DNA of 11,073 nucleotides from Akkermansiaceae bacterium (lineage in GTDB: Bacteria > Verrucomicrobiota > Verrucomicrobiia > Verrucomicrobiales > Akkermansiaceae), in contig JAQGPE010000787.1 of assembly GCA_028293225.1 (NCBI GenBank), positions 1 to 11,073 of the forward strand, given 5' to 3'. A model generated the notes under the pieces. It saw only the letters and a list, made by a program, of their open reading frames with translations, searched no databases and was not told where the DNA came from. Below are positions 1 to 11,073 of the stretch, piece by piece (the stretch's first letter is position 1; each line of letters opens with the position of its first letter). The position numbers and the translations under genes were made by a program.

Positions 1-1008
1 AGCCTGGAACTGAACAACCGCTACAGCGCGGACACGACGCCGCTGCGCCTGAACGGGTCCCTCAATTACGACAATCTCTGGCAGCTCGGGCACTCGCTGG
101 GGCTGAGCTTTCAGATCGCGCCGGAGAAGCTGGAGGACGCCGAAGTTTTCTCGGCCTCCTACACCATCCGTCTCCCGAACAGCGAAGGCTGGTCGGTGCT
201 GCTCCAGGGCACCAAGCAAGATAGCAACGTCTCCACGCTGGGCGGCTCCGCGGTGGTGGGCCGCGGTGAAACGGTCGGCGTGCGCGCCATGAAGACGCTG
301 CCGCAGTCCGAGCACTACTCGCAGTCCATCAGCATGGGCTTCGACTACAAGCACCTGGACGAGTTCAGCATCGGTGGGTTCAAGCCGATCACCTACTATC
401 CCTTTAGCTTGCTCTACACCTCGACCTGGAAGCAGGACAAGGGGCACACCGACATCAATGCCGGGATCAACTGGCACTTCCGCGGCGTGGGCGATGCGGA
501 GTCGGACTTCGACGCCAAGCGCTACAAGGCGGACGGCGGCTACATCTACTTCCGTGGCGATATTTCCCACACCCAGGATCTCAATACCGGTTACCAGTGG
601 TTCGCGAAGGTCCAGGGCCAGGCCTCGAACGAGCCGCTGATCAACAGCGAGCAGTTCTCCGCCGGCGGTCTTGGCAGCGTCCGCGGCTACATGGAGTCCG
701 AAGCGCTGGGTGACGACGCGATTTTCGGCACACTGGAATTCCGCAGTCCGTCGCTGATTGGCAAGGGCTGGAGCGAGGCGGACGACCTGCGGGTTTACGG
801 CTTCTTCGACGGCGGCGTGACCAGCATCCATGACGCCCTGCCGCTCCAGAGCGCGGGCGAGCAGCTCGCCAGCGTCGGCATCGGCGCGCGCGGCCGTGTC
901 TTCGACCATTTCAACGGCTCGCTCGATGCCGCCTACCCCCTCTTCAGCCGGCCCTCCGGCAAAGATACCCGCCTGATGTACACCTTCCGTCTCTGGGGTG
1001 ATTTCTGA
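1..1008 (+). CDS. TpsB/FhaC/ShlB-type two-partner secretion outer-membrane transporter (5' truncated)
   Basis: Outer-membrane beta-barrel of the Omp85/TpsB family, which translocates a partner TpsA exoprotein across the outer membrane without ATP. The frame is open from base 1, so the gene begins upstream; 335 codons are visible, and family members are usually 550-600 residues, so the signal peptide and most of the POTRA region are missing. The visible start (NRYSADTTPLRLNGSL, followed by YDNLWQLGHSLGLSFQ) is the typical first barrel strands. The diagnostic VRGY tip of loop 6 is at 679-690, within GGLGSVRGYMESEALGDDA. The second Omp85 motif (YGFFDGG, with its conserved Asp codon at 808-810) follows. 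The protein ends in a phenylalanine (RLWGDF), the usual barrel-terminal signature. Its likely substrate is the TpsA protein starting at 7519. The two genes are separated by six others, whereas they are normally adjacent. Family assignment is secure; the substrate pairing is inferred. Confidence 0.93.
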   Translation, partial: SLELNNRYSADTTPLRLNGSLNYDNLWQLGHSLGLSFQIAPEKLEDAEVFSASYTIRLPNSEGWSVLLQGTKQDSNVSTLGGSAVVGRGETVGVRAMKTLPQSEHYSQSISMGFDYKHLDEFSIGGFKPITYYPFSLLYTSTWKQDKGHTDINAGINWHFRGVGDAESDFDAKRYKADGGYIYFRGDISHTQDLNTGYQWFAKVQGQASNEPLINSEQFSAGGLGSVRGYMESEALGDDAIFGTLEFRSPSLIGKGWSEADDLRVYGFFDGGVTSIHDALPLQSAGEQLASVGIGARGRVFDHFNGSLDAAYPLFSRPSGKDTRLMYTFRLWGDF

Positions 1009-1042
1009 ATTCCCTCCCTCCCAACACCACTCTCACTTTGCG
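1009..1042 (+). other. Short pyrimidine-rich leader before the ExbB-fusion gene
   Basis: The 34-base gap holds no purine-rich Shine-Dalgarno sequence. It contains CCTCCCTCCC at 1013-1022, which recurs exactly at 4071-4080 in front of the porin gene. No hairpin or terminator is visible. Whether the shared tract acts in translation or is just base composition cannot be told from the sequence. Confidence 0.3.
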
Positions 1043-2938
1043 ATGAAACTGAGCAAGACGACCCGATCGATCCTACCCGCCGTGCTGGCCGCGCTCGGCC
1101 TGACCGCGCTGCCCGCCTTTGCGGAGGGCAGCAGCAATGGTTGGTGGGACGCGGCCTGGGCCCACCGCCAGCCGGTGACCATTGATCCTGCCGCCGATGC
1201 GGGCCTGACCGAAGCCACCGGGCCGGTGACGGTGCTGGTGCGCCTGCATGAGGGCAACTTCGCTTTCTCCCAAGCCGCCCCGGACGGCAGCGACCTGCGC
1301 TTCGCTTCCGAAGACGGCAAAACGGTGTATCCGCACCAGATCGAGAAGTACGACTCCCTGATCAATGAAGCCTTCGTCTGGGTGAAGCTGCCGGGCATCG
1401 CTCCCGGCGCGAAGACCAACCTTTTCGCCTACTACGGCAATGGCGCGCCAACGGCGGCCAACAAGCCGGCCGAAGCCTACGATGCCGACGCCTCGCTGGT
1501 GTGGCATTTCTCCGGCCAGACCGGCTCTCCCACCGACGCCACCAGCAACGGCAGCGACGGCGGCTCGCCCGCGACCTTTTCCGAAGGCGCCCTGATCGGC
1601 GGCGGCCTGCGCCTGCTGGGCGCGGAGCCGGTGACGATCAAGGAAAACCCGGCCTTGAACTGGACCGGCGCGGCGACGATCTCGATGTGGGTCCGCCCCT
1701 CGGCGGTGAATACGACGAACGTCGTAATGAGTCGCGGTGAAGGCGGCGAACGCTTCCGCCTGCTGCTCGACAAGGGCGTGCCGGTGGTGGAAATCGGCGG
1801 CGTGAAGTCCTCCGGTGGCGCTCCGCTGGCTGCCGGAACCTGGGCCCACCTCGCCGTCACGGCCGAGGCCGGTGCGGTGAAGGTTTATGTCGATGGCAAG
1901 GTCTACGGCACGGCTCAGGCGGCGTTGCCGGCTCTGCAGAGCGCGATCATCCTGGGCGGTCCTGCCGGGGGGGGCGCGACGCCATTCGCCGGTGAAGTCG
2001 ATGAGCTGGAAATTTCCAAGGTTGCCCGCAGCGCCGGCTGGGTGCACTTCGCGGCGACCTCGCAGGGCACCAGCGATGCCGCTGCCCGCCTGGTGGCTGC
2101 CGGAGCGGCGGAAGAGTCGGGCGCGGCGGCCAAGGAAGGCGGCCACAGCAAGGTCATGGAGCACATCGCGCTCTTCGGCGACATCGCCAAGAACATGATG
2201 TTCGACGGCTGGATGGCGATCGGCCTCTGCTGCATCATGATCGTGGTCGGCTGGACCGTCGCGGCCAGGAAGTTCATCTATCTCAACTCGATCCAGAAGG
2301 GCAGCGAAGCTTTCCTGCGCCAGTGGAAGATGATTTCGTCCGACCTTACGTCGCTCGACCACGCCGATGCCGAGAGCGTCCGCAGCTTTGGTGGAACCGC
2401 CGATCCCAAGACCCAGAAACTGGTCCAGAAGTCGCCACTCTATCAGATCTATCACATCGGCTCGGAGGAGATCCGCCACCGCCTGCTGCGGGACAAGGAA
2501 CGCACGCAGGGCCTGTCCGGCCGCTCGATCCAGGCGATCCGCGCCGCGCTCGACGGCGGCCTGGTCCACGCGACTCACAAGCTCACCAGTGGCCTGGTTT
2601 TCCTCACCATCAGCATCGCCGGTGGCCCGTATGTCGGTCTGCTCGGCACGGTGGTCGGCGTCATGATCACGTTCGCCATCATCGCGAAAAGCGGCGAGGT
2701 GGACGTCAACTCGATCGCCCCGGGTATCGCCAGCGCCCTGCTCGCCACCGTGGCCGGCCTGATCGTCGCGATCCCGGCGCTGTTCATCTACAGCTACCTG
2801 AACAGCAAGATCAAGGAAGCCACCGGCAGCATGCAGGTCTTCATCGATGAGTTCGTCGCCAAGATGGCCGAATTCTATCCGCCCGCGGGAGAAAGCTCCC
2901 CCTACGCGCAGACCGCGCCAAACGACAAAGTCGCCTGA
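1043..2938 (+). CDS. DUF2341-LamG-ExbB/TolQ/MotA-type proton channel fusion
   Basis: Inner-membrane proton-channel subunit with a large periplasmic sensor-like region, 631 aa. I chose the ATG at 1043 because it opens directly on a signal peptide (MKLSKTTRSILPAVLAAL... ending AFA|EGS near residue 27). A GTG at 998 would overlap the upstream gene and bury that signal. Order: DUF2341 about residues 33-135 (WWDAAWAHRQPVTI; LFAYYGN near 127), a LamG/concanavalin-like jelly roll about 150-330 (GEVDELEISKVARS), a linker, TM1 about 389-414, a cytoplasmic region, TM2 about 528-547 (GPYVGLLGTVVGVM) and TM3 about 557-586 (IASALLATVAGLIVAIPALF). Plain ExbB proteins are about 240 aa with no such ectodomain. 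T536 and T569 match E. coli ExbB T148 and T181, with the same 33-residue spacing, but the E176 position is Ser564. It lies 6 bases before exbD. A proton-fed role with ExbD and TonB is strong; the ectodomain's ligand is unknown. Confidence 0.93.
   Translation: MKLSKTTRSILPAVLAALGLTALPAFAEGSSNGWWDAAWAHRQPVTIDPAADAGLTEATGPVTVLVRLHEGNFAFSQAAPDGSDLRFASEDGKTVYPHQIEKYDSLINEAFVWVKLPGIAPGAKTNLFAYYGNGAPTAANKPAEAYDADASLVWHFSGQTGSPTDATSNGSDGGSPATFSEGALIGGGLRLLGAEPVTIKENPALNWTGAATISMWVRPSAVNTTNVVMSRGEGGERFRLLLDKGVPVVEIGGVKSSGGAPLAAGTWAHLAVTAEAGAVKVYVDGKVYGTAQAALPALQSAIILGGPAGGGATPFAGEVDELEISKVARSAGWVHFAATSQGTSDAAARLVAAGAAEESGAAAKEGGHSKVMEHIALFGDIAKNMMFDGWMAIGLCCIMIVVGWTVAARKFIYLNSIQKGSEAFLRQWKMISSDLTSLDHADAESVRSFGGTADPKTQKLVQKSPLYQIYHIGSEEIRHRLLRDKERTQGLSGRSIQAIRAALDGGLVHATHKLTSGLVFLTISIAGGPYVGLLGTVVGVMITFAIIAKSGEVDVNSIAPGIASALLATVAGLIVAIPALFIYSYLNSKIKEATGSMQVFIDEFVAKMAEFYPPAGESSPYAQTAPNDKVA
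1967..1974 (+). repeat. G8 homopolymer inside the LamG region
   Basis: Eight consecutive G residues lie in frame (codons GGG GGG GGC starting at 1967, residues 309-311) within the LamG part of the ExbB fusion. The current length keeps the frame open. Gain or loss of one G would truncate the protein before all three channel membrane segments. It could be a slippage site or a sequencing-error-prone spot. Confidence 0.85.
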
Positions 2939-2944
2939 TTTACC

Positions 2945-3352
2945 ATGGCCTCCGCTGACGAAAAGAGCTTCGACGACATCAACGTCACGCCGATGGTGGA
3001 CCTCTACCTGGTGCTGCTGTTGATCTTCATCATCATGACCACTGCCGGGGTGCAGGGCGTGAAAGTCAATCTGCCCAGGGCCGGCAAGGCCGCGGCGGCA
3101 GACATCGGCGCGCCGAAACTGCAGGCCATCACCGTCAACACGGAAGGGAAGATTTTCCTGAACACGATGCCCGTCACGCTCGCCGAGTTGGAGGACAAGC
3201 TGTCCAAGCACAAGGCGCAGCACCCGGAGTTTCCCGTGGTGGTCCGTGGCGACCGCCAGTCCCAGTACCAGGGCATCATGGATGTGCTCGATGTACTAGG
3301 CCGCCTGAACATCACCAACATCGGCCTCGCCACCCAGGGCCCGAAGAAGTGA
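2945..3352 (+). CDS. exbD: ExbD/TolR-family proton-channel subunit
   Basis: Partner of the ExbB-like channel in the inner membrane, 135 aa, the usual ExbD length. A short cytoplasmic N-terminus is followed by INVTPMVDLYLVLLLIFIIM, the family's single membrane helix (about residues 17-37). Asp19 corresponds to the essential protonatable aspartate (D25 of E. coli ExbD). After the helix comes VKVNLP, the conserved stretch leading into the periplasmic domain (about 40-135), which ends with VVVRGDRQSQYQGIMDVLDVL, typical of the ExbD/TolR C-terminal fold. The ATG follows the fusion gene's stop by 6 bases and precedes the TonB-like gene by 6 bases, so the three are almost surely co-transcribed. No Shine-Dalgarno is visible. 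TolR is the alternative name, but the adjacent TonB-like gene and the absence of tolA/tolB/pal favour ExbD. Confidence 0.95.
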   Translation: MASADEKSFDDINVTPMVDLYLVLLLIFIIMTTAGVQGVKVNLPRAGKAAAADIGAPKLQAITVNTEGKIFLNTMPVTLAELEDKLSKHKAQHPEFPVVVRGDRQSQYQGIMDVLDVLGRLNITNIGLATQGPKK

Positions 3353-3358
3353 TCCCGC

Positions 3359-4060
3359 ATGTCCGGACCCTTTGACCAATCGATCGACGACGAGGACGAG
3401 AAGCGCAAACGCCGCTTCATCGTCCTCGGCGTCGTTGTCGCCGTGCTGCTGGCCGGGGGTGGTGCGTACTATGCCAGTAGTGGCAACAAGCCCGCGCCGA
3501 AGAAGAAAGCGGTCTCCGATGTGGTGATGATCACGCCGCTGCCTCCTCCTCCACCGCCGCTACCCCCGCCCCCGCCGCCAAAGGATCCGCCGCCGGAGCC
3601 GGAGAAGCAGGAGATGATCAAGGAGCAGCCCGTCGAGGAAGAACCCCCGCCGGAACCAGCCGCCGCGCCCGATCCGGGCCCGGATATTTCGACCAACATT
3701 GGCGGTGACGGACCGGGAAGCCTTTCCCGCCCCGGCCAAGGAGGCAATGGCCCCGGCGGACCAGGCAGAACTGGCGGCGGTGGCGATCCGCGCCGCTACT
3801 ACGGCTCCCAGGTTCGCAGGGGCCTGATCGACGCTCTCAAGCTCAATTCCAAGACCCGCACCGCTGCCATGGATGTGACGGTGCGCGTCTGGTTTTCCTC
3901 CACCGGACAGGTCACGCGTTCGACCGTGTCGGGCGATGTCAGCCCTGCCGTAAAGGATGCCATCCAGTCCGAAGTGCTCGCCAACTATTCCGCTCCGGGC
4001 GGCCCTCCCGCCAACGCCCCCATGCCCATGGTCCTTCGTTTCAAGGCCACCCGCCCCTGA
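3359..4060 (+). CDS. TonB-like energy transducer
   Basis: Inner-membrane-anchored periplasmic protein, 233 aa, expected to carry proton-motive energy from ExbB-ExbD to the outer membrane. Visible parts: an acidic then basic cytoplasmic N-terminus (DDEDEKRKRR), one membrane helix about residues 20-38, a proline tract (six Pro, Leu, six Pro at residues 62-74) continuing as a Pro/Glu/Lys region to about 105 (the TonB periplasm-spanning arm), a Gly-rich hinge about 113-142, and a small C-terminal domain about 143-233. That domain contains VRVWFSSTGQVTRSTVSGD, matching the TonB C-terminal pattern of a strand followed by a [DS]-x-x-G-x-V turn. The membrane helix lacks an obvious SHLS-type His motif as in E. 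coli TonB. Position right after exbD supports the call. No TonB-dependent receptor is present in the window, so its partner is unknown. A TolA-like function is possible. Confidence 0.82.
   Translation: MSGPFDQSIDDEDEKRKRRFIVLGVVVAVLLAGGGAYYASSGNKPAPKKKAVSDVVMITPLPPPPPPLPPPPPPKDPPPEPEKQEMIKEQPVEEEPPPEPAAAPDPGPDISTNIGGDGPGSLSRPGQGGNGPGGPGRTGGGGDPRRYYGSQVRRGLIDALKLNSKTRTAAMDVTVRVWFSSTGQVTRSTVSGDVSPAVKDAIQSEVLANYSAPGGPPANAPMPMVLRFKATRP
3542..3580 (+). repeat. Proline-codon tract of the TonB-like protein
   Basis: Thirteen codons, twelve of them CCN (six proline, one CTA leucine, six proline), form a low-complexity C-rich run. It encodes the start of the rigid periplasmic arm, residues 62-74. Synonymous codon mixing suggests selection for proline rather than a recent simple-repeat expansion. 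Confidence 0.9.
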
Positions 4061-4093
4061 CGCCGCCCCACCTCCCTCCCATTCATTTCACCC
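4061..4093 (+). other. Short pyrimidine-rich leader before the porin gene
   Basis: The 33-base gap has no Shine-Dalgarno-like purine run. It carries CCTCCCTCCC at 4071-4080, ending 13 bases before the ATG, identical to the 10-mer before the ExbB-fusion start. No terminator-like hairpin is visible. Confidence 0.3.
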
Positions 4094-5869
4094 ATGCCCC
4101 TTCCACGTCACGATATTCACGGTCCGCTCGCGGCCCTTCTGCTGGCCTCGCTTTCGGCCGCGTCACTCCAGGCCGCTGAAGAGCCGGCTGCCGCTCTGGC
4201 CGCGAACAGCGCCGGCAGCGGTGCGACCTCCAACGTCACCATCAACCTGATCAACCGCTTGGTTGCGAAGAATGTGCTGAGCAAGGAGGACGCCGCGGAC
4301 CTGATCAAGCAGGCCAAGGCCGATGCCGAGGCCGTGGCCATCCGCGAGCAGTCGATGCGCGTGGCGATCGCCGATGCCGCCGCGCCCCCCGCCGATCCAA
4401 ACGATGTGAATGTCAGCTACGTGCCGGAGCCGGTGCGGGCGCAGATGCGTGAGGAGATCAAGGCCGACGTTCTCGCCGATGCCCGCAAGCAGGGCTGGGG
4501 CAATCCCAAGGACGCCACTCCTTCCTGGGTGAAAAAGTGGGATGTCTTCGGTGACTTCCGCGTCCGCTACGAGGGCACCTTCTTCCCGGGCGGCAATGAC
4601 AACACCGGCGCTTTCCCGAATTTCAACGCGATCAACACCGGCTCGCCGTTCGACGTCTCCGGCACGCAGTTCTCGCCCCAGCTCAACGTCGACCAGGACC
4701 GCAACCGCCTGCGCTTCCGCGCCCGCATCGGCGCCGGGATCGAGCTGGAGGACGGCTTCAGCGCCGGCTTCCGCGTGGCGACCGGTGAGAACAACTCGCC
4801 GGTTTCGACCAACCAGTCCTTCGGGGCTTCCGGCGGCAATTTCTCGAAGTATTCGCTCTGGCTCGACCGCGCCTATCTGGCCTACAATTTCGGCGATAAG
4901 CCTTACTCCGACATCACCGCCTACATCGGCCGTTTCGAGAATCCGTTCTTCTCGTCCGAGGTCATGTGGGACGACGACATCGGCTTCGACGGCATGGCCT
5001 TGAAGGGCAAGTTCGAGCTGAACGACCGGATGAAGATGTTCGCCACCGGCGGCGCCTTTCCGATCTTCAACACCGACTTCAACTTCGCGACCAACCAGCC
5101 GGCGAAATTCGACAGCACCGACAAGTGGCTGCTCGCCGCGCAGATCGGCCTCGACTGGAAGATCAAGGACGACCTGACCGCCAAGTTCGCGGCCGCCTAC
5201 TACGACTTCGACGGCGTCGCCGGCAAGCTCTCCAGCCCCTTCACGCCGCTGAGCTCCGCGGATGCCGGTGACACCGACGGCACCCGCCCGTCGTTCGCCC
5301 AGAAGGGCAACACCTACATGGCGCTGCGCAACATCGTTCCAGACGCCAGCAACGGCAATGGAACGACCAACCAGTACCAGTACTTCGGTCTCGCGACGCC
5401 TTTCCGCAACATCACCCTGACCGGCCGTCTCGACTATGACGGCTACGAGCCCGTGCGCCTGTCGCTGATGGGCGAGTTCATCAAGAACATCGCCTTTGAC
5501 GAAGCCTCGGTCGCTGCCCTGGCAGTCAACAACCGCGGCCCGGCCGGAACCTCCGGCCCCGGCGCCTTCGAAGGGGGCGACACCGCCTGGTTCCTCAACT
5601 TCGTGGTCGGTGACGCATCGCTGGACGAGCGCGGCAAGTGGAACACCTTCCTCGGCTACCGCTACGTCGAGTCCGACTCCGTCGTGGATGGTTTCACCGA
5701 CTCCGACTTCGGTGGCGGCGGCACCAACATGAAGGGCTTCACCCTGGGTGGAAACTACGCGCTGTCGCCGTCGGTCCGCGTTGGCGCCCGCTGGATGAGC
5801 GCCGAAGAAGTCGCCGGCCCGACCTTGAAGAGCGACGTCCTCCAATTCGACATCAACGCCAAATTCTGA
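4094..5869 (+). CDS. Putative outer-membrane porin (Porin_5-like)
   Basis: Predicted outer-membrane beta-barrel channel, 591 aa. The start at 4094 gives a signal peptide (core LAALLLASLSAASLQA, cleavage near residue 27). Next is a helical periplasmic segment (about 45-100) containing NRLVAKNVLSKEDAADLIKQ, the pattern seen at the start of the 'putative porin' family. From about residue 145 (WVKKWDVFGDFRVRYEGTFF) to the end the sequence alternates aromatic and polar residues with short turns and long loops, as in barrels: RNRLRFRARIGAGIEL, WLDRAYLAYNFGD, YIGRFENPFF. It finishes LQFDINAKF, with the terminal Phe recognised by the BAM machinery. There is no TonB plug domain, so it is not a TonB-dependent receptor. 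It lies 33 bases after the TonB-like gene and 1 base before the next gene. Substrate is unknown; a role in solute uptake or as part of the surface system is inference. Confidence 0.86.
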   Translation: MPLPRHDIHGPLAALLLASLSAASLQAAEEPAAALAANSAGSGATSNVTINLINRLVAKNVLSKEDAADLIKQAKADAEAVAIREQSMRVAIADAAAPPADPNDVNVSYVPEPVRAQMREEIKADVLADARKQGWGNPKDATPSWVKKWDVFGDFRVRYEGTFFPGGNDNTGAFPNFNAINTGSPFDVSGTQFSPQLNVDQDRNRLRFRARIGAGIELEDGFSAGFRVATGENNSPVSTNQSFGASGGNFSKYSLWLDRAYLAYNFGDKPYSDITAYIGRFENPFFSSEVMWDDDIGFDGMALKGKFELNDRMKMFATGGAFPIFNTDFNFATNQPAKFDSTDKWLLAAQIGLDWKIKDDLTAKFAAAYYDFDGVAGKLSSPFTPLSSADAGDTDGTRPSFAQKGNTYMALRNIVPDASNGNGTTNQYQYFGLATPFRNITLTGRLDYDGYEPVRLSLMGEFIKNIAFDEASVAALAVNNRGPAGTSGPGAFEGGDTAWFLNFVVGDASLDERGKWNTFLGYRYVESDSVVDGFTDSDFGGGGTNMKGFTLGGNYALSPSVRVGARWMSAEEVAGPTLKSDVLQFDINAKF

Positions 5870-5870
5870 T

Positions 5871-6542
5871 ATGTCCCGTTCCCTTCTTCTTCTCTCGGGC
5901 CTGATGACGGCCCTGATTCTTCCCCTGCATGCCGCAGAGCCGGAAGATCCGAACGTTGCCGCCAATGCGAAGCTGCGTGAGGCGCTGCGAAATACGATGA
6001 CGCAGCTGCGCACCGCGCAGACCGATCTCGCGACCGCCCAGTCGGCGCAGGCCGCGGCCGAAGCCCAGGTGAAGGACCTCACCCTCAAGGCGGAAGCGAC
6101 CGCCAAGCAGGTGACCGCCGACCAGTTGGAGGCCCGTAAGAAGCTGGAAGCGGCCGTGGTCACGAACGAGCAACTCGAGACCATGCTGAAGGCCGCCAAG
6201 GCGAAGCTCGAAGAGTACGGGGTGAAGTTCCCACAGCTCATCGATCTCGCGAAAGCCACCGAGGCGGAGCGCGCCAAGCTGGCCGACGAGAACTCCGTCC
6301 TGAAAGCCAGGGTCCGCGACCACAAGGCGCAGAATCTGGAGCTCTTCCGTTTGGCGAACGAAATCCTCACCCGCTACGAGAAGTTCGGCGTGGGTGACGC
6401 GTTGAAAGCCAGGGAGCCCTTCACGGGCATCACCCGCGCCCGTCTGGAGACGCAGGTGCAGGACTACCGTGACAAAGCGGAGGATCTGAGAATTCCTGCG
6501 GAAAAAGCCAAGAAACCCGCGCCTGCTCCGTCGACTCATTGA
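5871..6542 (+). CDS. Secreted coiled-coil periplasmic protein of unknown function
   Basis: I do not recognise a named family. The 223-aa product begins with a clear signal peptide (MSRSLLLLSGLMTALILPLHA, about residues 1-21). A long helix with no Gly or Pro follows from about 29 to 115, rich in Ala, Lys, Glu, Gln and Leu with heptad-like spacing. A break (YGVKFP near 116-121) leads to a second helical stretch to about 168, so the mature protein probably forms a helical hairpin or coiled coil. Residues 169-208 are more compact (FGVGDALKAREPFTGITRAR), and the tail is basic and Pro-rich (KAKKPAPAPSTH). No membrane anchor or lipobox is visible after the signal. The ATG follows the porin stop by one base (TGA T ATG), implying translational coupling. 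Its size, helical prongs and neighbouring isomerase recall the Skp/SurA chaperone pair, but this is only an analogy; a scaffold or porin-tethering role is equally possible. Confidence 0.85.
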   Translation: MSRSLLLLSGLMTALILPLHAAEPEDPNVAANAKLREALRNTMTQLRTAQTDLATAQSAQAAAEAQVKDLTLKAEATAKQVTADQLEARKKLEAAVVTNEQLETMLKAAKAKLEEYGVKFPQLIDLAKATEAERAKLADENSVLKARVRDHKAQNLELFRLANEILTRYEKFGVGDALKAREPFTGITRARLETQVQDYRDKAEDLRIPAEKAKKPAPAPSTH

Positions 6543-6565
6543 AACCATTTCCGACGTACTACGAT

Positions 6566-7471
6566 ATGTTCCGTAATTCCATACTGTTCCCGCTTTTTGC
6601 CACCGGCCTGCTGATGCCGGCATTCGCCCAGGACGCGGGCGGGAAAGCGGTCATCGCGAAGATGGGCGACATCGAAATCCGCGCCGACGAGGTCCGCGGC
6701 TGGCTGGCCGGTCTGGATGAACAGCAGCGTGAAGCGGCGAAGGCCCAGCCGAACCTGCTGACGGAAGCGGTGCGCAGCCTGTTGGTGCAGCGCTTGGTTC
6801 TCCAGGAAGCCGACTCCAAGAAATGGGCCGAGCGTCCGGACGTGGCGGCGAAGATCGAGCGGCAGCGCGGCAGCATCGTCGCCGAGAGCTACCTGCGCTC
6901 GATGGCGGAGCCGGACAAGAATTTCCCTTCGGAAGACGAGATCAAGAAGGCCTACGACTCCGCCGGCGATGCCCTGAACGTGCCGCGCCGCCTGAAGCTG
7001 GCGCAGATCTTCATCGCGGCTCCGGCCGACGCGAAAGAGAAGGCCGCGAAGGAAGCCCAGGTCGCCGCCGTGAAGAAGAAACTGGCGGCCTCCGGCGCCG
7101 ATTTCGCCGCGATTGCCAAAGCCGACAGTGAAGAGCCGGCGACCGCGGAAAAAAGCGGCGAACTCGGATGGGTGGGCGAGAGCCAGATCCAGCCGGAGAT
7201 CCGCGACGAAGCGGCCAAGGTGACGAAGAACGGCGTGACCGCCCCAGTCCTTCTGAAGGACGGCTGGCATTTTGTGAAGGTCCTCGACCGCGAGGAACCG
7301 CGCAAGCTGACCCTCGAAGAGGTGAAGCCGAAGCTGCAGGAAAAACTCCGCGAGCAGCGCACCCAGGCCGCCAGCCAGGCGTATCTGGCGAAATTGTTGA
7401 AAGACCATCCGGTGGTCATCAACGAGATCGAACTGCCCAAGGTTCTCGGCGCCAACAAGAGCGCCGAGTGA
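6566..7471 (+). CDS. SurA/PpiC-like periplasmic peptidyl-prolyl isomerase (parvulin type)
   Basis: Predicted periplasmic foldase of 301 aa. I chose ATG 6566 because it starts a signal peptide (MFRNSILFPLFATGLLMPAFA|QD, cleavage near residue 21); a TTG at 6539 would overlap the preceding stop and add a non-signal extension. Residues about 25-135 form a helical SurA_N-like region (EVRGWLAGL, LLTEAVRSLLVQRLVLQEA). The parvulin domain spans about 138-245: KLAQIFIAAP, FAAIAKADSEEPATAEKSG, ELGWVGESQIQPEI, GWHFVKVLDREE. A C-terminal helix (about 246-290) returns to the chaperone region, as in SurA. The catalytic site is partly altered: the first conserved His is Gln147, the Cys/Asp position appears to be Glu, while the last His (His235) is kept, so isomerase activity may be weak and chaperoning dominant. 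It sits 47 bases before the giant TpsA gene, whose product is a plausible client. Confidence 0.92.
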   Translation: MFRNSILFPLFATGLLMPAFAQDAGGKAVIAKMGDIEIRADEVRGWLAGLDEQQREAAKAQPNLLTEAVRSLLVQRLVLQEADSKKWAERPDVAAKIERQRGSIVAESYLRSMAEPDKNFPSEDEIKKAYDSAGDALNVPRRLKLAQIFIAAPADAKEKAAKEAQVAAVKKKLAASGADFAAIAKADSEEPATAEKSGELGWVGESQIQPEIRDEAAKVTKNGVTAPVLLKDGWHFVKVLDREEPRKLTLEEVKPKLQEKLREQRTQAASQAYLAKLLKDHPVVINEIELPKVLGANKSAE

Positions 7472-7518
7472 TCCTGATCGTCCCTCTTTAAAGCCCGCAT
7501 TGCCCACCCTGCCGTCCC
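7472..7518 (+). other. 47-base gap before the TpsA gene
   Basis: The largest gap in the window. It is C-rich, with no convincing Shine-Dalgarno sequence, hairpin terminator or -35/-10 pair. The only palindrome noticed is TTTAAA. Continued transcription from the isomerase gene into TpsA is the simplest reading. Confidence 0.3.
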
Positions 7519-10500
7519 ATGAAAGTTTCCCCTCATCCTCTCCGCCGTCGTAGCGCCGCCGCCCGTGCCGCTGCGGCGCTCCTTGTCCTGCTGTGCGAGA
7601 TCGGAGTTCTGAATGAAGCGGTGATGGCAGGGGATATTCTCCGCGGCGGAGCGACCTCGGGCGCTCCCGTGGGGGCGAGTAATCCGACCGGCACCGCGCC
7701 TCCGGCGATCGCGCCGGCCGGCGGTACCACCCGCGATTCGCTGGCGCGCACTGCCCAGGCGATCCAGGCCATGCAGGCGATGCAGCTGGCGGCCCGCAAT
7801 GTGGCCAACCAGGGGGCGAACCACGCGATCAAGAATCCTTCGGGCAAGGGCGGCACCCTGCCGGATGTGCCGAACGGCATTGGCAAGGGCGGCCTGCAGG
7901 TCGACCCTCGTGTGACCGGAGGGCCTACGGATCCGCTCTGGACCGGTGCGGACCTTCCTTCGCAGACGACGACTTCCGGCGGCACCCAGGTGGTGACCGT
8001 GAAGCAGACCGCCCAGCAGGCGGTGCTGAACTGGGAGACCTTCAACGTCGGCAAGAACACCACGCTCAAGTTCGACCAGAGCGCCGGCGGCGCGAACGTC
8101 GGCCAGTGGATCGCCTTCAACAAGGTCAACGACCCGATGGCAAATCCGAGCCAGATTCTCGGCTCCATCGAGGCGCCCGGACAGGTCTACGTGATCAATC
8201 GCAACGGGATCATTTTCGGCGGCGGCTCGCAGGTGAATGTCCACGCCCTGGTGGCGTCGACGCTTTCGATCAACGACGACCTGGTGAAGCAGGGCCTGCT
8301 GAACAACCCGACCAACAAGTTCCTTTTCTCCGGACTCGGCGGCCCGGCCGATTCGAAGGTCGGCGATGTGATCGTCGAAGCCGGCGCCAAGCTCACGGCG
8401 CCGACCACCGTGGACAAGGTCGGCGGCCGCATCGCGCTGATCGGCGCGAACGTCTCGAACGAAGGCACGATCTCCACGACCGACGGACAGACGATTCTGG
8501 CGGCGGGTCTGGAGGTCGGCTTCACCGCCCACGCCACGACCGATCCGTCGCTGCGTGGCCTGGATACCTACATCGGTGCGGTGGTGGATCCGGCCTCCAC
8601 GTTGGCTGCCTATGCCGGCACGGCGACCAACAGTGGCCTCATCGACGCGGGACGGGCCAATGTCACCATTGCCGGCAAAAACGTTCAGCAGCTGGGAATT
8701 ATCACCAGCACGACCTCGGTCTCCTTCAACGGTCGCATCGACCTGCTGGCGAACTATGATGCGGTGGGCAACCCGTTCTACAACCCGGCGACAGTCGGCT
8801 CGCCGACTTTCCTGAACCGCTCGGTTGGGACGGTGACGCTTGGCGAGGGCAGCGTGACTCAGATCCTTCCCGAACTCGACAGCACGGAGAAGGCGATCGG
8901 ATCGAAGCTGGCCCTGCCATCGCAGATCAATCTGCAGGGCCAGGAGATCCACTTCGACAACAACTCGATCCTCTACGCGCCGAGCGCCAATGTGGTGGTC
9001 AACGCGGGTGCCTGGCAGGCGATCTTGCCGACCAATCAGACAAGTATCGGGACCTATCAGTTCGTGCACACCGGAGGTCGCATCGACCTCGATAGCGGCG
9101 CCCTGATCGATGTCTCCGGCTCGAAAAACGTCACTTCCTCGGTTGCGTCCAATATCATCGCGGTTGAGTTGCGCGGCTCGGAACTCGCGGACTCGCCGCT
9201 GCTGCGCGACGGCGCTCTGCGCGGCCAGACCATCTACGTCGATATCACCAAGACGGGCACTTACAACGGCAAGGCCTGGGTCGGCACTCCGTTGGCCGAC
9301 GTGTCCGGCTATGTCAATCTGGTCCAGCGGACGGTGGGCGAACTCACCGCTGCCGGCGGCACGGTGAAGCTCAACGCCGGTGATGCCGTGGTGATCCGCG
9401 AAGGGGCCAAAGTGGATGTCTCCGGCGGCACGATCAACTATGTGGGGGGTGTCGTACAGACCTCGCGGGTGGTTTCGAACGGCAAGATTTTCGACGTCGC
9501 TGATGCCACACCGGATCGGGTTTACGATGGCGTCTATCGCGGCGGCAGCATCACCAAGTCCAAGGCCTGGGGGGTGACCGAGCAGTTCGTCAATCCTCTT
9601 ACACTCAACGGCAGTCACTACCAGGAAGGCTTCCTCCAGGGCGGCAATGGCGGCACGCTCGATATCGCCAGCGGTGCGGTGGCCATCGACGGCACACTGA
9701 AAGGTACGACCTTCACCGGAGTTCGCCAGCGAACCATCGGCCCGGTGGCATCGACGCTGAATATTTCCTTCACCGCGGATCGCTTCCTCAACGGCACTTT
9801 GTCGGCCTACTCGCCCAATGCGACTTCGGTGGTCTTTTCAAACAATGCCGCGACCGACCAACTGGCCGACTTCTCCCTGGATGATGCCGGGAAGCCGCTG
9901 GCGCTGCCTGCGGACCGCCTGAACAAACTGATCCTGGATCCGGATCTGGTTGGCGCGAATGGTTTCGGGAACCTGTCGGTCAAGACTCCCGAAGGCGATG
10001 TCGTGGTGGAAAAAGGGATCAAGCTTGAGACCACGCCGCGCGGATCGATTTCCCTCTCAGGGGCGAATGTGGATGTGGAGGGCTCGCTGATCGCGGCCGG
10101 TGGCACGATTTCCGTAACGACCTACGATATTTCTCCGAACAAGGCGGCTGAGCTGGTCTTGAGCGGAGGACCGCTTCCGGCCGTTGACCCGACCCGCGGC
10201 CTGTTCACTCTTGGGGAAGGCGCGACGCTGAGCACGGCGGGCTATCTGGTCGATGACCGCCCGGAATCAGCGACGCTGCTCAAGACCCCGCTGGTCACCA
10301 ATGGCGGCACGATCAGCGTGACCTCCCTGTCGGCCAATCTTTCGGAAGGATCCCTGATCGATGTGTCGGGTGGCGTGGTTGCAACCGCCGGTGGCAAATA
10401 CACCTACGGCAATGCCGGTGGCATCTCGCTGCTTACCGGTCGCGACACCTCCTTTAAGGGCGTGGTGGGCGGCGAACTTCATCTCGGCGGCGAACTGCGC

Positions 10501-11073
10501 GGCATGTCCGGCGCCACTGGCGGCTCGCTGACGGTTCAGGCCGCGGCGGTCCAGGTGGGCGGCGACTCCGCGCCGCAGGGCGTCCTGCATCTGGATTCGA
10601 ATTTCTTCAACCAGGGAGGGTTTTCCTCCTTCACCGTGAATGGCATCGGTCGCGCCGACGGCCCCGGCCTGCTGATTGTCGGCGGCACGCGGATTTCTCC
10701 GGTGATTTCCAGCTGGCTCGCCTCGTCGGTCGACGGCGCCATTTCGCTGGATACCTATGTCAAGGATGCGGGCCTGCGTTCCACGGCCAGCCTGAGCTTC
10801 GGAGCACTCGGTTCCACGGATGATCAGGGCAACTTCAAGCTGCTTCTTCGCGGCGATCTGAAGGTCGAGGAAGGCGCGGTCATCGATGCCGGCGCCACAG
10901 GTGCGATCAAACTCAATGGCCAGACAGTCGAGGTCCAGGGCTCGCTGCTGGCGGCCGGTGGCTCGATCCAGGTGAATGGCGCCGGCAAGCTGCCTCTTCC
11001 CAACAATGCGAACGGCACCGAGGCGGACACCACCGTTTGGATCGGGCCGCACGCCGTGCTGAATGCCGCGGGA
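7519..11073 (+). CDS. Filamentous-haemagglutinin-type TpsA exoprotein (3' truncated)
   Basis: Large secreted adhesin-like protein of the two-partner system. 1185 codons are visible without a stop and the gene runs off the window. The ATG at 7519 opens a long basic signal sequence (RRR near residue 10, core AAAALLVLL, likely cleavage AVMA|GDI at 37). Residues 38-154 are an unusual extension: a Pro/Ala/Gly linker, a helix QAIQAMQAMQLAARN (80-94), then LPDVPNGIGKGGLQVDP and WTGADLP. The TPS secretion domain follows at about 155-300 with NWETFNVGKNTTLKFDQ (171-187) and VINRNGIIFGGGSQVNVHAL (225-244), the counterparts of FHA's N-terminal core and NPNG motif. The rest is repeated parallel beta-helix rungs (GALIDVSG, GSLIAAGGTISV). 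I saw no cysteine after the signal, usual for TpsA proteins. The QAMQ extension and rung style resemble the DUF3739-bearing haemagglutinin subfamily; that C-terminal domain would lie beyond the window. Binding target and activity are unknown. Confidence 0.95.
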   Translation, partial: MKVSPHPLRRRSAAARAAAALLVLLCEIGVLNEAVMAGDILRGGATSGAPVGASNPTGTAPPAIAPAGGTTRDSLARTAQAIQAMQAMQLAARNVANQGANHAIKNPSGKGGTLPDVPNGIGKGGLQVDPRVTGGPTDPLWTGADLPSQTTTSGGTQVVTVKQTAQQAVLNWETFNVGKNTTLKFDQSAGGANVGQWIAFNKVNDPMANPSQILGSIEAPGQVYVINRNGIIFGGGSQVNVHALVASTLSINDDLVKQGLLNNPTNKFLFSGLGGPADSKVGDVIVEAGAKLTAPTTVDKVGGRIALIGANVSNEGTISTTDGQTILAAGLEVGFTAHATTDPSLRGLDTYIGAVVDPASTLAAYAGTATNSGLIDAGRANVTIAGKNVQQLGIITSTTSVSFNGRIDLLANYDAVGNPFYNPATVGSPTFLNRSVGTVTLGEGSVTQILPELDSTEKAIGSKLALPSQINLQGQEIHFDNNSILYAPSANVVVNAGAWQAILPTNQTSIGTYQFVHTGGRIDLDSGALIDVSGSKNVTSSVASNIIAVELRGSELADSPLLRDGALRGQTIYVDITKTGTYNGKAWVGTPLADVSGYVNLVQRTVGELTAAGGTVKLNAGDAVVIREGAKVDVSGGTINYVGGVVQTSRVVSNGKIFDVADATPDRVYDGVYRGGSITKSKAWGVTEQFVNPLTLNGSHYQEGFLQGGNGGTLDIASGAVAIDGTLKGTTFTGVRQRTIGPVASTLNISFTADRFLNGTLSAYSPNATSVVFSNNAATDQLADFSLDDAGKPLALPADRLNKLILDPDLVGANGFGNLSVKTPEGDVVVEKGIKLETTPRGSISLSGANVDVEGSLIAAGGTISVTTYDISPNKAAELVLSGGPLPAVDPTRGLFTLGEGATLSTAGYLVDDRPESATLLKTPLVTNGGTISVTSLSANLSEGSLIDVSGGVVATAGGKYTYGNAGGISLLTGRDTSFKGVVGGELHLGGELRGMSGATGGSLTVQAAAVQVGGDSAPQGVLHLDSNFFNQGGFSSFTVNGIGRADGPGLLIVGGTRISPVISSWLASSVDGAISLDTYVKDAGLRSTASLSFGALGSTDDQGNFKLLLRGDLKVEEGAVIDAGATGAIKLNGQTVEVQGSLLAAGGSIQVNGAGKLPLPNNANGTEADTTVWIGPHAVLNAAG
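9097..9120 (+). repeat. Beta-helix rung motif GALIDVSG (copy 1)
   Basis: One of four visible copies of the pattern G-[AS]-x-[IV]-D-[VA]-[SG]-[GA] in TpsA. The others start at 9403 (GAKVDVSG), 10348 (GSLIDVSG) and 10873 (GAVIDAGA). Such units are the turn-plus-strand of a right-handed parallel beta-helix in FHA-like exoproteins. Confidence 0.7.
9403..9426 (+). repeat. Beta-helix rung motif GAKVDVSG (copy 2)
   Basis: Second copy of the short rung motif in TpsA. It is preceded by VVIRE and followed by a Gly and a new strand (TINYVGG), consistent with one helical coil. Confidence 0.65.
10042..10116 (+). repeat. 25-residue TpsA module, copy A
   Basis: Encodes GSISLSGANVDVEGSLIAAG followed by GTISV. 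It aligns without gaps to 10900-10974 (GAIKLNGQTVEVQGSLLAAG then GSIQV). The pattern is G-x-I-x-L-x-G-x-x-V-[DE]-V-[EQ]-G-S-L-[IL]-A-A-G-G-[TS]-I-x-V. Both copies are preceded by a similar VE-[KE]-G stretch, so the duplicated unit may be about 40 residues. Confidence 0.75.
10348..10371 (+). repeat. Beta-helix rung motif GSLIDVSG (copy 3)
   Basis: Third copy of the short rung motif in TpsA, between SANLSE and GVVATAGG. It fits the same turn-strand pattern as the copies at 9097 and 9403. Confidence 0.65.
10900..10974 (+). repeat. 25-residue TpsA module, copy B
   Basis: Second copy of the module at 10042-10116, 858 bases (286 codons) downstream and in the same frame. The two share the core V-[DE]-V-x-G-S-L-x-A-A-G-G. 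It is preceded by GAVIDAGA at 10873-10896, a fourth and divergent copy of the short rung motif. The DNA has diverged more than the protein, suggesting an old duplication or convergent rung structure. Confidence 0.75.

Follow-up and report, generated by a model that had tools for sequence, protein, structure and literature searches.

A conserved two-partner secretion locus of Akkermansiaceae with its own ExbB/TolQ-type motor genes and porin: a possible motor-coupled type Vb cassette

Previous studies indicate that two-partner secretion (TPS, type Vb) genes, encoding an exoprotein (TpsA) and its outer-membrane transporter (TpsB), can lie beside motor genes in Proteobacteria. The Pseudomonas aeruginosa cluster pdtA/pdtB-exbB2-exbD2-tonB4-PA0696-PA0699 was published as a set of TpsB, ExbB, ExbD, TonB, a putative outer-membrane porin, PA0697, a PpiC isomerase and a large TpsA (PMC7035377, PMC2729926). 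It belongs to the PUMA3/VreI regulon and is described as a putative TonB system that is uncharacterised, and not as belonging to the export machine (PMC2729926, PMC7035377). One promoter reads phdA through PA0701, namely phdA, pdtB, exbB2D2, tonB4 and PA0696-PA0701 (PMC4971064), and the cluster is induced by phosphate starvation via PhoB and sigma-VreI (PMC4971064, PMC7035377). TPS genes were noted together with exbBD and PA0696 in six genomes of Proteobacteria, and the association is reported for P. fluorescens, P. entomophila, B. vietnamiensis, R. palustris and Janthinobacterium; the latter two have four repeats of the PUMA3 cluster, of which three have tpsA behind them and one has tpsB with exbBD (PMC2729926). 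Here we analysed a contig of an Akkermansiaceae bacterium (Verrucomicrobiota), 11,073 bases long and referred to as the window, whose genes match the P. aeruginosa cluster in content and order, as judged from published gene lists and not from sequences (PMC7035377, PMC2729926). We found that the motor and porin of such loci belong to one TPS subtype, whereas ordinary TPS does without them, and we tentatively read the window as the larger part of a motor-coupled two-partner secretion cassette.

The window spans the whole of contig G000:C134 (G and L numbers denote genomes and loci) in a 4.5 Mb genome of 820 contigs that is 61.8% complete, and both TPS genes are truncated at the contig ends. Elsewhere in this genome, DUF3739 ends (DUF3739 being a C-terminal TpsA domain) are present on contigs C560 and C664. 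Open reading frame (ORF) listing and Pfam/NCBIfam searches place eight genes on the plus strand, in the following order:

1-1008, plus strand: TpsB outer-membrane transporter of the ShlB/FhaC type, C-terminal 335 residues, 5' end cut (PF03865, 1.7e-18).
1043-2938, plus strand: ExbB/TolQ-type motor subunit with a signal peptide and periplasmic DUF2341 and LamG domains ahead of the first transmembrane (TM) segment (Pfam/NCBIfam, hydropathy).
2945-3352, plus strand: ExbD/TolR-type motor subunit with a membrane Asp in NVTPMVD (PF02472, 1.5e-25).
3359-4060, plus strand: TonB/TolA-like transducer with a TM segment, a Pro-rich linker and a C-terminal domain (no Pfam match; predicted model).
4094-5869, plus strand: Porin_5 protein with 16 predicted strands, N-terminal helices and no plug (PF16930, 1.6e-199; AlphaFold2 (AF2) model).
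5871-6542, plus strand: helical/coiled-coil protein with a signal peptide (ORF, hydropathy; no Pfam family above cut-off).
6566-7471, plus strand: exported parvulin-type peptidyl-prolyl isomerase (PPIase; PF00639, PPIC rotamase, 1.9e-16).
7519-11073, plus strand: TpsA, an exoprotein of the filamentous haemagglutinin (FHA) type, N-terminal 1,185 residues with the TPS domain, 3' end cut (PF05860, 7.1e-22; TIGR01901, 4.7e-19).

The intergenic gaps are 34, 6, 6, 33, 1, 23 and 47 bases, taking the likely starts ATG 1043 for ExbB and ATG 6566 for the parvulin; the array of eight same-strand genes with gaps of 1-47 bases, as described in the original prediction, was thus borne out by the ORFs and domain searches. 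A simple sigma-70 scan of the window returned 0 sites, and shuffled sequence averages 1.3. A second, paralogous cassette (L037, on G000:C416) is present in the same genome, and the same-genus genomes G006, G011 and G015 each likewise hold two.

An even draw of 240 Verrucomicrobiota genomes showed the tie to one TPS subtype. Of these, 7 matched the ExbB query at E 1e-50 or better (in G029 the contig begins inside ExbB and the LamG part is unseen; G003 has a second ExbB match without LamG). Full-length Porin_5 occurs in exactly those 7 genomes, with partial, weaker matches in 30 others, and the TpsA domain DUF3739 in exactly the same 7 of the 240. TpsB (PF03865, E 1e-8) was detected in 33 genomes and the TPS domain in 31, both including all 7; these counts are lower bounds, since the cassette TpsB of G003 was missed by PF03865, which listed another TpsB there, and was recovered by homology. 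Because 26 further TpsB genomes lack the motor, motor and porin belong to one TPS subtype and ordinary TPS does without them. If phylogeny is ignored, a 7-and-7 overlap among 240 would arise by chance with a probability of about 1e-13; a count of 5 among 131 genera gives 3e-9. The functional link of motor and porin with TpsA is strong.

The gene order is likewise conserved. Among 57 relatives, full LamG-ExbB is present in 12 genomes at 17 loci including the window. TpsB, ExbB, ExbD, the TonB-like gene and the porin stand in identical order in 16/16 of the other loci (L034-L049), followed within the stretch examined by the helical protein in 15 (L046 ends inside the porin), the PPIase in 14 and TpsA in 13. 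In a tblastn search over 72,556 plasmids, 11 of 185 matching records cover at least 80% of the LamG-ExbB fusion, and 8 of the 9 such loci examined have TpsB and the porin near the motor; the Methylomagnum plasmid locus L055 has the motor, the TonB-like gene and a helical-protein relative alone. Two Klebsiella plasmids (L056, L057), one typed conjugative, carry the cassette, with the TpsB and PPIase frames broken in L057; no near match to this cassette was found in 20,395 E. coli records.

A further pattern scan covered 84,980 species, each represented by a single genome. The best 80 matches were analysed and two without LamG (L127, L130) dropped, leaving 78 LamG-ExbB loci that were picked by likeness to LamG-ExbB, so that the sample favours orthologues, and that include three records already counted among the relatives (L078, L087, L091). 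They span Verrucomicrobiota, Alpha-, Beta- and Gammaproteobacteria, and one Anaeromyxobacter metagenome-assembled genome (MAG). Where the flank suffices, TpsB lies upstream in 75/76 (the exception is L136), and ExbD (70/70), the TonB-like gene (65/65), the porin (63/63) and the helical protein after it (59/59) are constant. In the 56 loci with 9 kb of downstream sequence, the PPIase is found in 38, YbjN in 25 and the TpsA N-terminus in 29. A neighbourhood arising as a local accident is ruled out by this conservation between phyla.

Other genes near the cassette vary. A PBP-like secreted protein is found in 19/110 loci and a TSP3-type protein in 15/110 (L034, L039, L042, L043, L048 and others for the two together), both in Verrucomicrobiota cassettes; BLAST gave no match between the Methylosinus, Aquabacterium and Verrucomicrobiota groups of PBP-like proteins. 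Type II secretion genes lie nearby (L058, L061, L069, L070, L108, L141; L153, L154), in 6/110 loci by BLAST, and are annotated in Cupriavidus, Methylosinus and Aquabacterium, as hxc is in P. aeruginosa. The cassette of L054 has as a neighbour, at 9052-9783, a VreA-like protein ('secretin and TonB N-terminal domain') whose C-terminal domain is of the TonB type (profile hidden Markov model (HMM), 1e-22). A count of VreA-like matches over the loci was set aside, since it also picks up TonB domains.

With the porin as a second anchor, and by the porin alone, we searched 229 genomes from the class to which Solimonas flava belongs (Gammaproteobacteria). Full-length Porin_5 is present in 17 copies in 16 of them, and the 16 porin loci other than that of G291 were read. 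LamG-ExbB precedes the porin in 12 of these loci and in L117; L228-L230 are too short to tell. TpsB is seen in L219 and L221, and giant ORFs stand before ExbB with TpsB ahead in L216, L217, L222, L224 and L227. The TpsA model spans about the N-terminal 420 residues, so many porin loci at first seemed free of TPS; on reading upstream, a DUF3739 TpsA stands directly before the motor, and a motor/porin module often living without TPS was ruled out. DUF3739 is found in each of the ten TpsA C-termini tested (6.5e-26 to 1.1e-41). A DUF3739 TpsA lies within 4 kb in 11/12 assessable loci, L117 included, whose genome has a single DUF3739 on the porin's contig, and about 15 kb off in the twelfth, L215; for L223, L225 and L228-L230 the upstream DNA is too short for an assessment. 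With the module kept between phyla from both anchors, LamG-ExbB and porin, the composite system with a dedicated motor and porin that had been proposed for the window withstood its neighbourhood check, and it is well supported by the conserved order and the exact co-occurrence with the TpsA subtype.

There are more clients than machines. In 16 named genomes (15 proteobacterial and the Anaeromyxobacter MAG), DUF3739 occurs 1-9 times per genome, 31 in total, and the porin and LamG-ExbB are each single, except in G289, where both occur twice. The draft genome of Rhodoblastus sphagnicola (G293) has nine DUF3739 C-termini to a single porin, a single motor and a single TpsB ORF detected by PF03865.

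Whole TpsA of the DUF3739 type comprise about 3,600-4,600 residues. Those of the same genus (L143, L149, L150) run to 3,707-3,763 residues between stops, with DUF3739 and a tail motif, VEVLGYGG, at their ends, and eleven cassette TpsA have 3,602-4,254 as stop-to-stop frames. DUF3739 is present in all five TpsA tested by Pfam (L143, L149, L150, L153, L056), and NCBIfam gave no match on five TpsA C-termini. A VEVLGYG-like pattern lies inside the last 60 residues in 9 of the eleven; L147 is without it and L154 has a variant. At L147/L210 (G179), TpsA and its DUF3739 end are split over two neighbouring frames, and the L210 tail has the motif. Among 40 DUF3739 C-termini, at least 4 of which (L208, L209, L212, L214) overlap the eleven, the strict pattern is found in 32; by eye, five others have near forms (VEILGYG, VEIVGYG, LEVMGYG), L202 has VEVVGYE, L184 has none and L204 stops inside DUF3739. 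Ordinary TpsA show the motif in 0 of 11 usable controls, which remained from 20 taken from other TPS matches after 8 open-ended frames and, from the 12 closed ones, a wrong frame (L171) had been set aside. No mention of 'DUF3739' was found in our literature search.

The window contains the hallmarks of type Vb, a TPS domain in TpsA and a ShlB/FhaC-type barrel in TpsB. The N-terminal half of TpsB, on the POTRA side, is cut off in the window; relatives, with 534, 539 and 575 residues in L034, L036 and L038, show a conserved N-terminal region. The ExbB protein joins DUF2341 (6.6e-12), Laminin_G_3 (5.8e-21) and MotA_ExbB (4.8e-27) in a single ORF. DUF2341 is in print as an N-terminal addition to such motor A subunits, its function given as unknown (PMC12505986). 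The TM threonines T511 and T544 (residue numbers of the ExbB protein in the window) are invariant in 19 ExbB sequences. In 80 ExbD sequences the consensus TPM.D stands at 95% or more, and the narrower pattern TP.[VI]D fits 45/80, the residue preceding the Asp being variable. We take both threonines and the ExbD membrane Asp to have roles in the proton path. The MotA_ExbB and ExbD domains and these conserved residues place the pair in the ExbB/TolQ/MotA proton-channel superfamily. The scores are higher on TolQ/TolR than on ExbB/ExbD models, all of them below the curated cut-offs of the equivalogs for Tol (tolQ 110.4 of 221 bits, tolR 94 of 127.3) and TonB energisers (exbB 68.8 of 206.2, ExbD_2 62.2 of 123.45). 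Two ExbD genes stand in tandem in L036, L039-L042, L059, L092 and L093. In the sister loci L050-L053, an ExbB core up to 79.5% identical to that of the window has another N-terminus without the LamG head, with ExbD, a TonB-like gene and further genes, and with no TPS or porin within the stretch examined.

The C-terminal domain of the TonB-like protein has a TolA/TonB fold in the predicted model, nearer to TolA; by sequence, it gave weak matches alone in the PDB (HasB, 0.014). The original prediction thus needs two small corrections, the fold of its 'TonB' domain being nearer TolA and the motor scores nearer TolQ/TolR. TolA/TonB-type domains are known to bind short peptides by strand addition. 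A Foldseek search with the AF2 model of the porin gave the attachment porin OmpM1 as the best match (2.3e-14), and a sequence search of the PDB gave none. A TonB-dependent receptor, with a 22-stranded barrel and a plug, is ruled out for this protein by the predicted model with 16 strands and no plug. The helical protein has no Pfam or NCBIfam family above cut-off. Of the escort pair that the original prediction saw in it and the parvulin, the helical protein proved constant and the parvulin less so.

We tentatively favour, with somewhat less than even confidence, a motor-coupled type Vb system: a motor of the TolQRA/ExbBD kind would serve TpsA together with the porin, probably via the C-terminal tail of TpsA. 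Export of the giant, FHA-like TpsA with its DUF3739 would fall to TpsB. In the inner membrane, the ExbB/TolQ-ExbD/TolR proton-channel pair, its ExbB bearing the LamG head in the periplasm, would drive a TonB/TolA-like rod long enough to reach the outer membrane, where the rod would work with the 16-stranded porin, its N-terminal helices included, and with the periplasmic helical protein. The most likely target would be the TpsA tail (DUF3739 and VEVLGYGG), and the outcome would be an export that is finished or an exoprotein that is anchored or released. A tail-acting motor is favoured because the set is tied to one client type, one machine stands for many clients, the tail would leave last and the TolA/TonB domain is of a peptide-binding kind. 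We infer an active motor, in touch with the tail or the porin and at work in export, which it may drive, or in surface assembly; contact, direction of force and use of energy are conjectured likewise. A more specific form is doubtful, in which a widespread class of TPS would be driven by the proton-motive force: a TolQRA-like motor with LamG as a sensor head would move several giant clients, pulled or pushed by the C-terminal DUF3739 tag that they share, past or through a single TpsB and a dedicated porin.

Several observations weigh against a motor that serves export. The main one is that ordinary TPS in the same phylum has no motor. TPS is considered to export without an external energy source (PMC9355242), and in VreI-induced zebrafish infection each of the P. 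aeruginosa mutants tested (tpsA, tpsB, tonB homologue, PA0696) had wild-type virulence, so that no phenotype is known for these parts there (PMC2729926). By eye, the consensus of the region before the TpsB POTRA shows no conserved TonB-box-like stretch. Some loci depart from the pattern: L220 has TpsB and TpsA upstream of the porin and no LamG-ExbB between; L226 has TpsA and no TpsB in the stretch examined; L228 is the only porin-anchored locus without the helical protein after the porin; L055 and L136 lack an adjacent TpsB; and at L215, where motor and porin are both present, TpsB was not found in 49 kb and the DUF3739 ORF (L239; 7.5e-42, tail VELLGFGE) is about 15 kb off on the other strand. 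Gene trees point partly the other way, in favour of the cassette as a unit. In the four genomes holding both cassette types, A and B (G000, G006, G011, G015), the types form separate clades in the trees of TpsB, ExbB, porin, helical protein, PPIase and TpsA (the last without a B copy from G000), and the ExbD and TonB-like trees do not keep this split. The ExbD tree used the best-scoring copy where genes are tandem, and the TonB-like linker is low in complexity; these two trees speak, if anything, against strict co-inheritance. The ExbD copies of both cassettes cluster by genome in G000 and G015, as if exchanged.

We consider it unlikely that the locus serves capture and uptake, with TpsA as a surface fibre and the porin, energised or gated by the rod, importing bound matter, e.g., phosphate-rich compounds in phosphate starvation. 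The induction of the P. aeruginosa cluster via PhoB and sigma-VreI (PMC4971064, PMC7035377) would fit such a role, as would HxuABC, a TPS with a TonB-dependent uptake partner (PMC5422565). PBP-like proteins near the cassette point the same way, with PF12849 in Methylosinus and a Verrucomicrobiota family in the 19 loci (five members without a Pfam match). However, the porin is predicted to form a 16-stranded barrel with no plug. This argues against a classical TonB-dependent uptake receptor as part of the weaker alternative of the original prediction, an adhesin that captures and a porin/TonB branch that helps import, and no TonB-type motor is known to energise such a barrel. Furthermore, a single porin goes with up to nine TpsA, and no constant inner-membrane transporter was noticed in the cassette, no search having been aimed at one.

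It is quite unlikely that the motor and porin give envelope support, holding or positioning the outer membrane and the TpsB machine in the manner of Tol-Pal or attachment porins, with no energy passed to export. The higher TolQ/TolR scores, the TolA-like rod domain of the predicted model and the structural likeness of the porin to OmpM1 are what such a role would lead one to expect, but the set is tied to one TPS subtype and not to genomes at large, and Pfam detects no peptidoglycan-binding domain in the porin. That an adhesin and a separate TonB-type system are merely expressed together with no mutual action, as the single P. aeruginosa promoter (PMC4971064) might suggest, is very unlikely given the exact co-occurrence with the DUF3739 subtype and an order kept between phyla though sigma/FecR genes are found in proteobacterial loci alone.

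The driving force of type Vb translocation was stated to be unclear in a 2021 review (PMC8151025). With a TPS subtype that in several phyla goes with a proton motor, a porin and a C-terminal client tag of its own, this question becomes directly testable by gene removal, and a role is suggested for the P. aeruginosa motor called uncharacterised in 2020 (PMC7035377). The gene set kept together across distant groups suggests that this export, long thought energy-free, may have its own engine. If the proton-motive-force machine is real, it would be a direct energy source for type Vb secretion; if the motor does not serve export, it would be a new kind of adhesin partner. Literature searches on TPS/filamentous hemagglutinin with ExbB, ExbD and Verrucomicrobia returned no paper, and within these searches we found no description of the Verrucomicrobiota form, the exact DUF3739 tie, the tail motif or the client excess.

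There are significant differences between the window and the systems it resembles. The P. aeruginosa set has YbjN (PA0698), whereas the window and 16 related loci are without it by HMM, and the best tblastn match to YbjN in the loci of 20 relatives has an E of 0.041. Sigma and FecR genes (VreI/VreR-like, as in Methylosinus) have BLAST matches in proteobacterial loci only and none in Verrucomicrobiota loci; the window has no DNA upstream of tpsB. Compared with P. aeruginosa, window-type loci often have TpsA after the parvulin, with PBP-like and TSP3-type secreted proteins near. The haem-haemopexin system HxuCBA shares a TPS plus a TonB-linked outer-membrane partner (PMC5422565). However, HxuC is a TonB-dependent transporter, and the partner here is a predicted plugless porin with the motor inside the cassette. 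Type 9 secretion (PorLM/GldLM) is a motor-driven machine for several giant clients with a C-terminal tag. We compare it with the window by way of working only and claim no membership; the export channel here is TpsB, and Pfam and NCBIfam found no match to type 9 secretion families in the window. With the Tol (TolQRA) and TonB (ExbBD-TonB) systems the locus shares a proton-channel pair and a Pro-rich rod with the TolA/TonB C-terminal fold, but its ExbB has a LamG/DUF2341 head, and the window is without a TonB-dependent receptor, TolB or Pal. With type Vb systems such as FhaB/FhaC it shares a TPS-domain TpsA and a ShlB-type TpsB; the canonical system consists of these two proteins and no motor, whereas here the motor, the porin and the helical protein are near-constant companions.

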